The translations under genes were made by a program, and so were the position numbers. From Echinarachnius parma (Eukaryota > Echinodermata > Echinoidea > Clypeasteroida > Echinarachniidae), in the NCBI GenBank assembly GCA_037951105.1, contig JBAMJV010003237.1, positions 1 to 64,000 on the forward strand: a stretch of 64,000 nucleotides of DNA, in the 5' to 3' direction. Positions 37,501-43,500 of the stretch are shown in pieces; positions within the stretch are counted from its first letter, which is position 1, and each line of letters starts with the position of its first letter. The notes beneath the pieces were generated by a model. That model had not been told where the DNA came from. It was given only the letters and a program-made list of their open reading frames with translations, and made no database searches.

Positions 37501-40500
37501 AGAGCTTAACAACAAGAACGACTCAACGAGTAGCAAGCAGGTGACAGGAACAACAAACACAGTGAGTATTTATAGAAAACCAAACTAAGTGATGTCTCAA
37601 CCAGGATGAAAAGGGGGACATTTTTTGTTTCTTTTTTTTCAGGGGCTACTATTCAAGTTAAAAAAACACATAAAATATAGAGGTAAACCACCAAAAATGG
37701 AAGCATGAAGGTTGTAGGTCTCTGGAAAAAATGTATTACTATATTTTTTCCGTACTGACAAGTCAATCGAAAATCATCCTTTATTTAAGGAGATTCAATG
37801 AGTCAGAAATTATGTTCACGATTTATATATTCTTTTTTTGTTATGCTTTGTTGAAAATGTGGAAAATCAAACCCAACGAATCAAATCAAATCAAATCAAT
37901 TCTTTCTTCATGTATTACAATTCTGCAGCAGAACACAGCAAAGCCTAGCACACCGAAGCTAAGAACAAGAATAGTGGGGTCGCGACCTATGACCCCCGTG
38001 ACCTCGGCCATCAAGACTGCCATGGTCAACGTTATAGAGAAGAGAAGCGCAGGTAAGATAGACGTTTTCTGATGATGATAAACACTGCTGAACACTGCTT
38101 ATCTACTATTATTATCTACAAATAATCCAGCAAAATAAACAATTCTGTGGTTGAGCTCGTGTTATAAAACAAATAATACTACGGTCTTATGTAAATTCAT
38201 CGCGCTCTCGGTTTTGTTAGATGTGCGCATGCACACTCGGCTTACGCCTCGTGCGCTGCACACATATAACAAAACCTCGAGACCGTGTATTATTTGTATA
38301 ACAATTGCCTTTGTAATAAAATGAGAGTCAATAGAGGGCCTGAGCTTTCGCTGCTAGCAGAATCTTCTTCAGAAGCAAACTGATAAAAATAACCATCAAT
38401 ATATAGATCATCAAGCTATTTTTTTTTTAAATACCAGTTTCGTAATGCACTCACTTCTCTCTACCTATGATACTAAATGTTGCTTTAAATTCATTTTTAA
38501 GCTGGCAACTTTGTTATAATATCACTCTCTTTATTGTACTAACTTTGGACTTTTAAGAAATGTTAAAAAGCCCAATATAGATTTGTAGTTGCCCTGAGCC
38601 ATCAGGCTAGAGGAAGTGTCTGAACATCTGGGCCCCGTTTCATAAAACTTTTCCAATTGTTGTAAGTATCCAATTATAGTAACTACCATGGCAACAGCTA
38701 CAATCCTTGATGCTGATTGGCTGTTGCCATAGTAGTTACAATAATTGGGACAAGTTTTTATGAAACAGGGCCCAGATTCATAGTCATCTACCTATAAAGC
38801 AGAGCTAGACACTAACATGAATATCTGTTTGGAATGTTATCTATAAATAAAAACTAACATATTTTGTTTTAAAATTGGTCCCTTTTCCCTATAGTGGGAG
38901 TGTCGTGGTATAATGGTTCGGGCCTTCGTCTTTTAATACGAGGGTCGTGGGTTTGATTCCCAGCCGCGGCACGTGTGTCCTTCAGCAAGTGTGTCCTTCA
39001 GCAAGATACTTTATCCACATTTGCTGCTCTCAACCCAGGTGTAGTAAATGGGTACTTGGCAAAAATTTATTCCTTGAAACGCCTAGGGGCTTGAATAAGG
39101 CTGCTCGACTAAAGCTTAGGTAATGATGCTCTGAGCGCTTTGAGACTTAACTGTAGTAAAGCGCTATATAAAAATGAACAATTATTATTATTTATTATCT
39201 TTGATTTCTTTCCATACAGCTGTTACAACTGTCAAGAACATTCCCATTTGCTCCATGGACAAGGTCTATGAGATGCTCAACACATGTCTGGAACACATGC
39301 CCAAAGGTGAGGGATTGGTTGTACAGTCTGCTCTCCCGATTATCTGTCTATAAATACCATCTGTACTGTTAACCACCTGTCTATAAAGACCACCTATGAA
39401 GCATTTTGTAATCTGTAATCTGTATACATGTATAATTATAGTCCTCCTGATTCTAAAAACCATGTCTATGTACTTTATGTTGTCGTAATAAGCAGGTTTA
39501 ACTGCATATTCTTTTAATAATAAATGATGAATATTGGTTAAGTGATAATACTTTTTCCAAACAGTTCGTATCATTTAATCAATACAAGCATTGATGATTT
39601 TTGTTTGTTTTGTAACTGTTTGTTGCTACATGTACTTCCTACTTACATGAAGTAATTATTATCTTTATTGCTTCTTTTATTCAGAGGACTACAGGAGTAC
39701 CCCAAAGTACAAACCCAACCCCAGCGAGGTGGTCTGGGTCATCAAATGGGTGGACTACTCCAACAAGTATGGCTTTGGCTACCAACTCTCCAATAAGGTG
39801 GTCGGGGTCATGTTCAACGACAAGTCCAGGATAAGCTTCACTCCAGATAGAAGGTATGTGTATGTTTTGATGGTTAGAATGCTCCCCAGAGAGTTATGAT
39901 GGTAGATTTTAATTGAATTCAAAGATTTGATAAATTGATCATGATTGTGTACCAGCTCTCCAACAAGGTGGTCGGGGTCATGTTCAACGACAAGTCCAGG
40001 AAAAACTTCACTCCGGATAGAAGGTATGTGTATGTTTTGATGGTTTGAATGCTCCAGAGGGAGTTGAGATAGTAGAATTAAGATCCAAGATTTTTGCGAT
40101 TCTGATCCAGATTGTGTACCAGCTTTCCAATAAGGCGGTCGGGGTCATGTTCAACGACAAGTCCAGGATAAGCTTCACTCCAGATAGAAGGAATGTGTAG
40201 GTTTAGATGGTTAGAATGCTCCCTAGGTAGTTATGATGGTATATACATTGAATCTAAAAATGTCATAAATTGATCATGATTGTGTACCAGCTCTCCAATA
40301 AAGAGGTTGATGTCGTGTTCAACGACGAGTCCAGGAAAATCTTCACTCCAGACAGAAGGTACTTGCGCATGTTTTGAGGGTTAGAATGCTCCCCAGGGAG
40401 TTGAGATGATAGAATTAGAACCAAGAGATTGTTATAAAGATCATGATTGTGGCCCCTCTTTCAAATTAGGTAGTTGGTGTCCTGTTCAACGACAAGTCCA

Positions 40501-43500
40501 GGATAAGCTTCACTCCAGATAGAAGGTATGAGTGTGTTTTGATTTTTGAGTTTGAATGCTCCACAGGGAGGTGAGATGGTATATTTCAATTGAACCCAAA
40601 TGTTATTATAATCATGATTATGATTGTGTACCAGCTCTCTGATGAAGAAGTGGGCGTCATGTTTAACAACAAGCATCTACTTCACTTCAGGATTACAACA
40701 ATTTAAAAATAATTATAGTATTATTAGACCTCTCTTTGTGTGGTTAGTTCCAATTTCAGTTCAGTGCAATTTCTGTCAACAGACAGTGAGATCTATCCTT
40801 TTCCAACTCAACTCAGTCTACAGCAGACTATCTAAGAAGACAAAGAAAACTCCACCCCATGAAACATGTTTAGTATTCTCTTCACCTCAGAATTCAGCAA
40901 AATCGACTTATTCTATATTTATTTTGTCTCTCTCTCTCTGTTTATTTCCATTTTCAGTTCAGTGCAATATCTATCTACAGACACCGAGATCTATCTTTCC
41001 CAACTCAACTCGGTCCCCACTGGACTATCAAAGAAGGTTACATTCAATCATTTGTTCAACTTCAGTGTTGATTACTAGTTATCTTTCATTATTAAACTAC
41101 TTGACTTATTTCTTTTCTTTGTCTGTTTATTTCCATTTTCAGTTCAGTGCAATATCTGTCGACAGACAGCAAGGTCCACTCGTTTCCGCTCAACTCGGTC
41201 CCCAGTAGGCTATCCAAGAAGGTGACGCTCCTCGACTACTTTGCAACTTACATGGACGAACACCTCATCAAGGTAAATATAGAGTTACCATGGCAACTGC
41301 AATTTGTTTGCATCGTATGACATATGAAAATATCTGTTGCAAAACGCATATATCGCCATATTTGTTGATTTGGGATATTTGCAGTTGGAGCAGTAGAAAT
41401 GTAAAAGAAAATAAGGAAATTTTGTTACACAGTTTTTTAATCATTACTGGTTTCACATTATTATTATTATTCCATCATTGTTTTCAGCAATTTTAATTAT
41501 CATCTTTAAGATTGTCATGCGTAGGGATCGTTGAACCTGTCTGAAAAACATTACATCATACATGTAACACTGTGGAGTGTGTATTAAGCACCATGTGCAA
41601 GGTGTTTACAAGTTTGCACCGGGCTGCTGATTAACAAATCCGAAACACATTTTAATTATAATTTTTATAAAAGAAACATTCTCATAATAAACCTGAATCT
41701 CACCATGACGTATTGTATCCCATGCATCTCTCACATGGACAACCAGGGTCCCGCGGCTGACCTCACCTGCCTTGACCCTAACGAGGTAGTCTCTTCACCA
41801 GCCTCCCCAGTAAATTTATTGTTGTAATTCATATGTGTAATGTGCAGTTGTTGTTGTTGTTGTTAACTTCTTTTTGGTCATTAGTCAGCATTGTCCATTG
41901 ATGCCATATTCATAAATGTTTGTGTTGTTGACAGTGGTAATGTAAGTCTAATGTTTGCATTAAAGGTCTGTGACACTATCCGGAAACCACTCAATAGTTG
42001 TGTGTTAATGTTTGCTTTAATTACTCAATCTTGTGATCTCCATTGTCATTTTAATATATTTGTTGTATTTTATCTAAACTGTTGAAATTTGTTAATGTTC
42101 CAACAGCCAGAACTGTGTCATCATAACAATTTAAAACCTTTTGTTGTGATGAATCATGTGCACATCCCAAATTGTCTGGGATGTTTTTGTTTACACGCGA
42201 TATGTCAGGAAGTTATTTGTCAGCTGTTTGAAATGCCGCCAGTTGTACTGCGTCTTTGTCTTTTAGTCTTTGAGCTGCAGAGACAGCTGCTTGAAAAAAA
42301 AAAAAAAAGCTTGCCTGAATTTTCAATTTATATCCCTTCCTCTCTCTCCTCTCTAATTTTTATTTGAATGTTACTTTGCCCCCCCCCCCCCCCCCCAAAA
42401 AAAAGAAGAAAAAACCCCCGACAAACAAACAATAATAATCTACTGTCTACATTATATGTTGGTCTCTGTGCCAGCTGTAATAGTGATTTATAATGACTAA
42501 TCTATAGGTAATTCAACATTTTGTAAGTTTTACTCCTTCCAACCTCCCCCCCCCCCCAAAAAAAAAAAAAAAAAAAATAAATAAATAAATAAAAAAGTAA
42601 GGATCTTCTTTATACTCATGTGTATTTGTCTTTGTAATGCTAAGTGATTTATAATTTTGTCTGTAATTTTCTAAAAATAGGCACTTTCATTAAAATTGCA
42701 TTATCATTAACATGTCTTTATATTGATAACAAAGGTGTAGTTGTTCCCCCATCTTTATCACTCAATGTCTGTGACAAACTTTCTAGTTACATTAATGTGT
42801 TTTTCATTTGATATTTGACTCCGTCTATACATCTCTATAATATATACATCTCTGTTTTTAATTTAGGAGCCAGTTATCTACTTTAAGTAAATTGAATACA
42901 GTATATGATTATTTTTATACTTCCCTCTCCCATCTTGTAATGGTTTGTGGCCTTCTTTCTGTCCTAAATGTACAATGTATACGTGTCACTAATAGTTTAG
43001 TTATGGTCTTATTTTATGCTTCGTGCCCTATGATGTTTGTTTTCCAACACACATACTACAATTTATGTTTTGATTGTGTAATAGATTTATGTATGCATGA
43101 TGCAGTTGTTAACATGGTATTTAATTGTACACACAGATATAATGTCGATCTGTTTCGAAAACAGTAAAGACATTTTCCTTAGTTTCCATATTTCTGATTG
43201 TTTGATGGCATATTCAAGTGTTTCAGTATTTTGAGTTCATGCATATTCCTTAATGAGTATACATGTATACATTTGTCATATATTTATTGTAATGTTGAAA
43301 CACTTTTTTTCATTTTATACATATCTGATTATTTGATGGCCTACTCAAGTGTTTTGGTATTTTGAGTTCATGCAGATCCTTGAACGGGTCTTTAATACTT
43401 ATTTTGATCATATCATATTATGTTTCTCTTTCTAAAGGGCATTGACTCTGACAAGAAGGATGGAATAAGGTCACCGTCGCCCAAGAGGAAAGGAGTTGAC

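Follow-up and report, generated by a model that had tools for sequence, protein, structure and literature searches.

Why is the edge of a single exon repeated, head to tail, along the intron that follows it? The question arises in a polo-like kinase (PLK) gene within a 64,000-nt stretch of Echinarachnius parma DNA (assembly GCA_037951105.1, contig JBAMJV010003237.1, positions 1-64,000, forward strand), referred to here as the window. An earlier note had described five partial copies behind one polo-box exon and had named neutral decay, decoy splice donors, or an unstable locus as possible reasons. We consider it likely that the array arose as a side effect of small tandem duplications that occur often, followed by neutral decay and by exchange between units; no function of the copies was found.

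The kinase gene and the array behind exon H

The gene is PLK1/2-like. Both a Ser/Thr kinase domain and a polo box are present, with Pfam matches to Pkinase (6.7e-20) and POLO_box (1.4e-12) in the open frames of separate exons. When the polo-box exons are joined, their protein matches structures of PLK2 and PLK1 at 8.4e-27 (PLK2 4xb0) to 5.3e-24. Coding exons were placed through their splice sites and reading frame and are labeled A (19674) to L (47133-47361), the placement of exon J and of the ends of exons A and K being rough. No exon upstream of 19674 was identified in the window.

Six head-to-tail units, the sixth truncated, span positions 39780-40673, from inside exon H into the intron after it. 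Alignment confirmed the unit content claimed before, namely the last 74 nt of exon H, the donor, and about 95 nt of intron, with the unit start lying inside the exon. The units begin at 39780, 39950, 40117, 40285, 40452, and 40629, giving steps of 170, 167, 168, 167, and 177 nt, compared with the 170, 167, 168, ~165, and ~179 first reported. Tandem Repeats Finder (TRF) detected the array at 39780-40581 with a period of 167 (4.8 copies, score 896) and, with a higher score of 1067, at 39780-40639 with a double period of 335. In a self-blastn comparison of the whole window, 39780-40496 matched 39950-40673 at E 2e-160, and both methods confirm the five-copy array. The exon and its units are as follows.

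39685-39853, plus strand: native exon H ("exon 11" of the earlier note), first half of polo box 1; POLO_box match on its open frame, acceptor and donor, GT at 39854
39780-39949, plus strand: unit c0, the last 74 nt of live exon H, the donor, and the first 96 nt of intron (TRF, alignment)
39950-40116, plus strand: copy c1, whose GT donor at 40024 matches the native donor over all nine bases (alignment, splice score)
40117-40284, plus strand: copy c2, donor mutated to GA (40191), with a 55-nt run identical to c0 (alignment, splice score)
40285-40451, plus strand: copy c3, weak donor at 40359 (alignment, splice score)
40452-40628, plus strand: copy c4, 11/37 differences from c0 at its start, then a 48-nt run identical to c0 that extends past the donor at 40526 (alignment)
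40629-40673, plus strand: copy c5, truncated to 45 nt, without a donor (self-blastn, alignment)

Splice scores here and below were computed with textbook frequencies. Copies c1, c2, and c3 remain open in the native frame over their exon-like part, as a frame check confirmed, and c4 contains an in-frame TAG. That three copies keep a GT donor also holds (40024, 40359, and 40526, each one base off the position first given). In the truncated c5 (SDEEVGV) there is a D, as in the aligned PLK1 and PLK2 chains, where the live exon has N; this may be a hint of the age of the copy.

Divergence and exchange among the units

Differences from the native unit were counted separately for the exon and intron parts under two alignments, the outcome of the exon-versus-intron comparison within the array varying with the alignment of the AT-rich intron end. 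The exon part differs at 5/74 positions in c1, 3/74 in c2, and 11/74 in both c3 and c4. The corresponding intron counts are 13/88 or 18/91 for c1, 12/93 or 14/94 for c2, 9/88 or 19/91 for c3 (p = 0.42), and 17/95 or 19/96 for c4 (p = 0.43). The exon part had been described as better kept in copies 1-3; these counts uphold this for c1 and c2 and leave it unclear for c3, as for c4. Over the five units the exon part was better kept than the distal 41 nt of intron (p = 0.001) and not significantly different from the first 50 intron nt (p = 0.32), and on the latter result we dropped a general exon-versus-intron contrast across units.

Units c0 and c4 share an identical run of 48 nt (p = 0.0004), and c2 and c4 share one of 44 nt (0 of 5000 shuffles). 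In this test 5 of the 10 unit pairs gave p < 0.05, and two survive correction for ten pairs. Such long identical runs within units that otherwise diverge suggest that sequence was exchanged or converted; c4 is a mosaic unit. An age-graded "conveyor," with older copies lying farther off, is unsupported, given bootstrap values of 39-74 in trees of the five window units and the mosaic c4. A slower native intron start is suggestive (c0 holds 1 of 23-26 single-unit differences, depending on the alignment; p = 0.02-0.03) and was not used.

Edge copies at exons I, B, and D

Partial copies also accompany three other exons of the gene.

41143-41272, plus strand: native exon I ("exon 12" of the earlier note), from splice sites, frame, and the structure match of the joined protein
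40730-40845, plus strand: first copy of the exon I 5' edge, with acceptor, exon-like from 40760 (self-blastn, alignment)
40928-41041, plus strand: second copy of the exon I 5' edge, exon-like from 40958, with an 18-nt acceptor string that equals the native (self-blastn, alignment)
28602-28718, plus strand: native exon B, kinase, from splice sites and frame; compared with contig C5568 (see below)
28384-28490, plus strand: partial copy of the exon B 5' edge, 87% (self-blastn)
27959-28030, plus strand: older partial copy of exon B, 76% (self-blastn)
28120-28200, plus strand: third copy of exon B, very degenerate and weak (27984-28185 against 28441-28641, 64.8%, E 3e-7)
34513-34608, plus strand: native exon D, kinase, from splice sites and frame; compared with C5568
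34683-34776, plus strand: copy of the exon D 3' edge with donor, downstream of the exon, 87%, gapless (self-blastn, alignment)

The two partial copies upstream of exon I, both with acceptors, had been overlooked in the earlier note. They have a +1 frame-breaking insertion in common. Copies of its own ends cover 899 of the 1110 interior bases (81%) of the intron at 39854-41142. Coverage was 5-10% when the sequence was block-shuffled (10 controls), and the eight other introns of the PLK gene that were compared reach 0-12%, indicating that the intron between exons H and I is mostly built of its own ends.

Two of the exon B copies are open in the native frame over their exon-like part. In the near copy, the exon part carries 2/68 differences and the intron part 21/60 (p = 1e-6), and both exon-part differences fall at third codon positions; in the older copy, the differences by codon position are 3/2/8. 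Protein selection alone should permit more third-position change than the near copy has, so that conversion from the live exon seems the likelier cause of its well kept exon part.

Contig C5568, another version of the locus

The reverse complement of contig C5568 is colinear with window positions 24834-40026, with 95.75% identity in a block of 5.8 kb and 85-95% in the remaining ones. Across six exons (313 codons) the two versions differ by 20 synonymous and 0 nonsynonymous changes, and AG/GT are intact at the splice sites. For these reasons we take C5568 to be probably a second allele and less likely a recent partial paralogue. Some genes of the chaperonin CCT sit in contig pairs with equal scores, e.g. 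C6105 and C8375, as expected if both chromosomes were partly assembled; when the 5' edge of a CCT exon was searched for, the exon and its two copies were the only matches, and no second version appeared.

The surroundings of exon H are arranged differently in C5568. Three copies of its 5' edge lie upstream (nhmmer E 7.8e-39, 1.3e-13, and 3.4e-12), a search that in the window returned only the native edge above threshold. Downstream, C5568 has two 3' units, the second cut short, before a transposon, compared with six in the window, a difference to be read with the provisos that the remaining array may lie beyond the transposon and that C5568 may not be an allele. The sequence directly after the donor of the second unit occurs at six other genomic places with 94-100% identity; the starts of five of these copies coincide to within one base, and the sixth starts ten bases earlier. 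Judging from these matches, the sequence is a recent transposon.

The intron part of the live unit in C5568 differs from that of window copy c1 at 5/72 positions, whereas 10-12 differences in 69-72 positions separate it from each of the four remaining units. It groups with c1 with a bootstrap of 87, and the unit has six single-unit states in common with c1 alone and one with c3 alone. From this grouping of a live-unit intron with a dead copy, the units appear to be shifted by one between the versions.

We also compared the copies themselves between the two versions. The exon-like parts of three copies differ at 6/68, 3/51, and 1/68 positions (10/187), compared with 15/328 in their own flanks or intron-like parts (p = 0.68). 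Real exons differ at 22/1076 (p = 0.019). A degenerate exon B copy (28133-28177, 5/44) aligns just in part and was excluded from this count. These three exon-like copies thus diverge like intron, without a sign of coding constraint; coding selection on them is unsupported, the three diverging at the flank rate. An excess of synonymous differences in exon H (7/55, compared with 13/258; p = 0.06) is not claimed.

An element resembling a short interspersed element (SINE) at 38893-39194, which from its appearance we take to be a tRNA-like SINE, is absent from the corresponding place in C5568. Window positions 7813-9112 (1.3 kb) recur at 92% in C5568 (9576-10873 of its reverse complement), within the intron that precedes exon B, and this stretch is probably a mobile element.

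Edge copies elsewhere in the genome

We surveyed a random sample of twenty 10-kb contig starts (200 kb), in which 251 mock cores served for comparison. This sample contains 32 local duplication clusters, or 1.6 per 10 kb, and the whole window contains 13, or 2.0 per 10 kb. Two sets of exons outside the PLK gene were searched. The first comprised nine CCT exons with flanks, taken from the 63 family matches listed; local copies overlap the exon core in 6/9 at E 1e-3 and in 5/9 at 1e-5. The second comprised eight coding frames of the random sample, chosen by eye, ahead of the copy search, among the 40 top scorers of 312 candidates; edge copies accompany 3/8, two of them within one gene, which we take to be UBA1-like. 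One exon of this gene (L029, 4690-4785) has several upstream partial copies (77-91%) forming a rich 5'-edge array. The copy at L045 is short (26 nt) and is lost at E 1e-5.

With the 12 PLK exons included, 13/29 exons have edge copies, compared with 38/251 random cores (p = 0.0004), and outside the PLK gene 9/17 do (p = 0.0006). At E 1e-5 the counts are 12/29 (p = 0.001) and 8/17 (p = 0.003). Exons therefore carry more recognizable copies than random cores. The run behind exon H had been called unusual; this stands for the number of copies beside one exon and not for their kind, which recurs at 13 of the 29 exons. Among the open-access literature matches listed, we found no report of partial edge copies at many exons of one genome.

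Explanations of the array

We propose that frequent local tandem duplications of ~100-200 bp would generate the edge copies. A duplication spanning one splice site would leave a complete exon and drop an extra partial copy into the adjoining intron, and splicing could ignore that copy. Because one complete exon remains, selection should tolerate such events, and it should remove duplications inside or across whole exons. Repeats of this process at both ends may have filled the intron at 39854-41142 with copies of its own ends. The copies would then decay neutrally, as three of them do between the two versions. The units would also exchange sequence with one another, the live exon edge included, as indicated by the identical runs and by the grouping with c1; the route may be unequal crossing over or conversion. 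Neutral decay, one of the options originally offered, is supported by the three unconstrained copies, and the unstable locus, which belongs together with it, by the different arrangement in C5568.

Several observations weigh against this account. Neutrality was seen in three copies only, and the second exon I copy has an acceptor whose score, 7.84, is level with that of the native one. C5568 could be a paralogue, as a genome search with the exon I edge found a single locus, consisting of the exon and its two window copies, and the 23 kb of C5568 past the array have no window match at E 1e-10. With respect to the unit shift, the exon part of the live unit in C5568 does not separate the units (2/74 from c0 and 3/74 from c1; bootstrap 43), and 5/72 against 10/71 alone gives p = 0.18. 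Finally, exons have edge copies at about three times the rate of random cores, and with the random rate doubled to allow for the slower divergence of a constrained partner the p values are 0.07 for 13/29 and 0.04 for 9/17 outside the PLK gene, so that a model of purely random hits is strained but may still hold.

The threefold excess may be largely detection bias, because the copy of a constrained exon should stay recognizable for roughly double the time of a pair of intron sequences. The other reading of the excess is that exon edges are true hot spots of small splice-site-spanning duplication, e.g. through transcription- or chromatin-linked breaks, and that such events are a main route of intron growth. 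Many exons would then be flanked by dead copies, introns would lengthen by copying their own ends, and live edges would swap with dead copies, so that a dead copy on one chromosome would be the coding edge on another with the protein unchanged. The survey counts favor this, as does the overlap of 4 of the 8 duplication clusters of the PLK gene body with exons (random mean 1.5, p = 0.045). Nevertheless, the longer recognizability of exon copies and the doubled-rate p values speak against it, several of the exons counted belong to one gene and are not independent, and the comparison sample consists of contig starts. We regard hot spots, and the wider picture drawn from them, as a possibility to be entertained only tentatively.

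A regulatory role for the copies, as decoys or poison exons sending the kinase transcript to nonsense-mediated decay, is improbable to our minds. The c1 donor is identical to the native one, which makes decoy donors possible in principle, and its use would add an in-frame stop, the exon H frame reaching a stop at 39899; GT is kept in 3/5 exon H copies, and the second exon I copy has an acceptor equal to the native in score. However, one donor is dead (GA), another is weak (c3, 4.99 compared with 8.94 for the native), and the last copy has none. The acceptor-like sites at the starts of c1, c2, c3, and c5 score 1.5-1.75, although the native acceptor of exon C reaches just 2.71. Both exon I copies carry the frame-breaking insertion, three copies are unconstrained between versions, and C5568 carries a different set. 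Apart from some good splice sites, the decoy-donor option found no positive support.

It is still less probable, and indeed hard to credit, that the copies are remnants of formerly complete, mutually exclusive alternative exons. The open frames of exon H copies 1-3 and of two exon B copies would fit, and differences lean to third positions in some pairs, as in the older exon B copy, but such a lean is what one constrained partner alone should produce. None of the aligned copies reaches from one splice site of an exon to the other, since each exon-like stretch starts or ends inside the exon, and the 68-nt CAG-to-donor stretch in the exon H copies has phase 0-2, whereas the intron before exon H has phase 1. 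Least of all do we believe in an assembly artefact. The assembly is a draft of 14,790 contigs, and C5568 is possibly misjoined at the transposon; yet the several to 25% of differences between neighboring units exceed what duplicated reads would show, exon H arrays are found in both contigs, and similar copies occur in other genes.

Other repeats in the window

A perfect (GATT)n microsatellite of 27.8 copies (19793-19903) starts about a dozen bases past the donor of the kinase exon at 19674, and a CT-rich minisatellite (44508-46928, 89-nt unit, ~27 copies) occupies the intron preceding the last coding exon. A further tandem array at 9657-10280 (unit 168-171 nt, 3.6 copies, ~83% matches) is tied to no identified exon. 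Members of a dispersed repeat family lie at 29325-29594, 53117-53383, and 53843-54113, with 79-84% identity and one member inverted.

Significance and comparison with known systems

Duplication by-products of this kind matter because the lengthening of an intron without transposons, and the survival of a gene through splice-site duplications, are seldom caught in the act. Judging from our small initial survey, partial copies of exon edges may be common in this genome. They form a trap for gene annotation as well as a reserve of extra splice sites that could give rise to new introns or exons. If the hot spots were real, splice-site-spanning duplication would be a main route of intron growth in the genome.

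The head-to-tail units of ~170 nt, with mosaic members and a stronger double period of 335, resemble satellite-like arrays under unequal crossing over, and so may the different number of units before the transposon in C5568. Unlike in such arrays, one unit here holds a live exon edge, with the protein sequence unchanged between versions. With tandemly duplicated, mutually exclusive exons the locus has in common the tandem exon-like copies inside an intron, but here the copies are partial and apparently unconstrained, and none has the two splice sites that a complete exon requires.

In a review (PMC3443670) and a Drosophila survey (PMC2891723), the Rogers model and the surveys around it concern new intron positions, which arise by duplication of an exonic AGGT segment. 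There, as here, local tandem duplication of exonic sequence supplies intron sequence, but here an existing intron lengthens and no new position is needed. The potato RdRp gene (PMC4974935) offers a parallel in geometry. There a single tandem duplication spanning the boundary between an intron and an exon gave rise to a new intron, which RNA reads show to be spliced, and to additional exon sequence. The duplicate comprises the 3' end of the intron with its acceptor and polypyrimidine tract, together with the 5' part of the exon that follows; the exon B and I copies have this geometry. Unlike the case described there, five copies of one edge lie in a pre-existing intron, no new intron is evident, and 3' exon edges are copied too. 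What the present locus adds to these known systems is that the duplications fill an existing intron, hit both of its ends, and recur at several exons.

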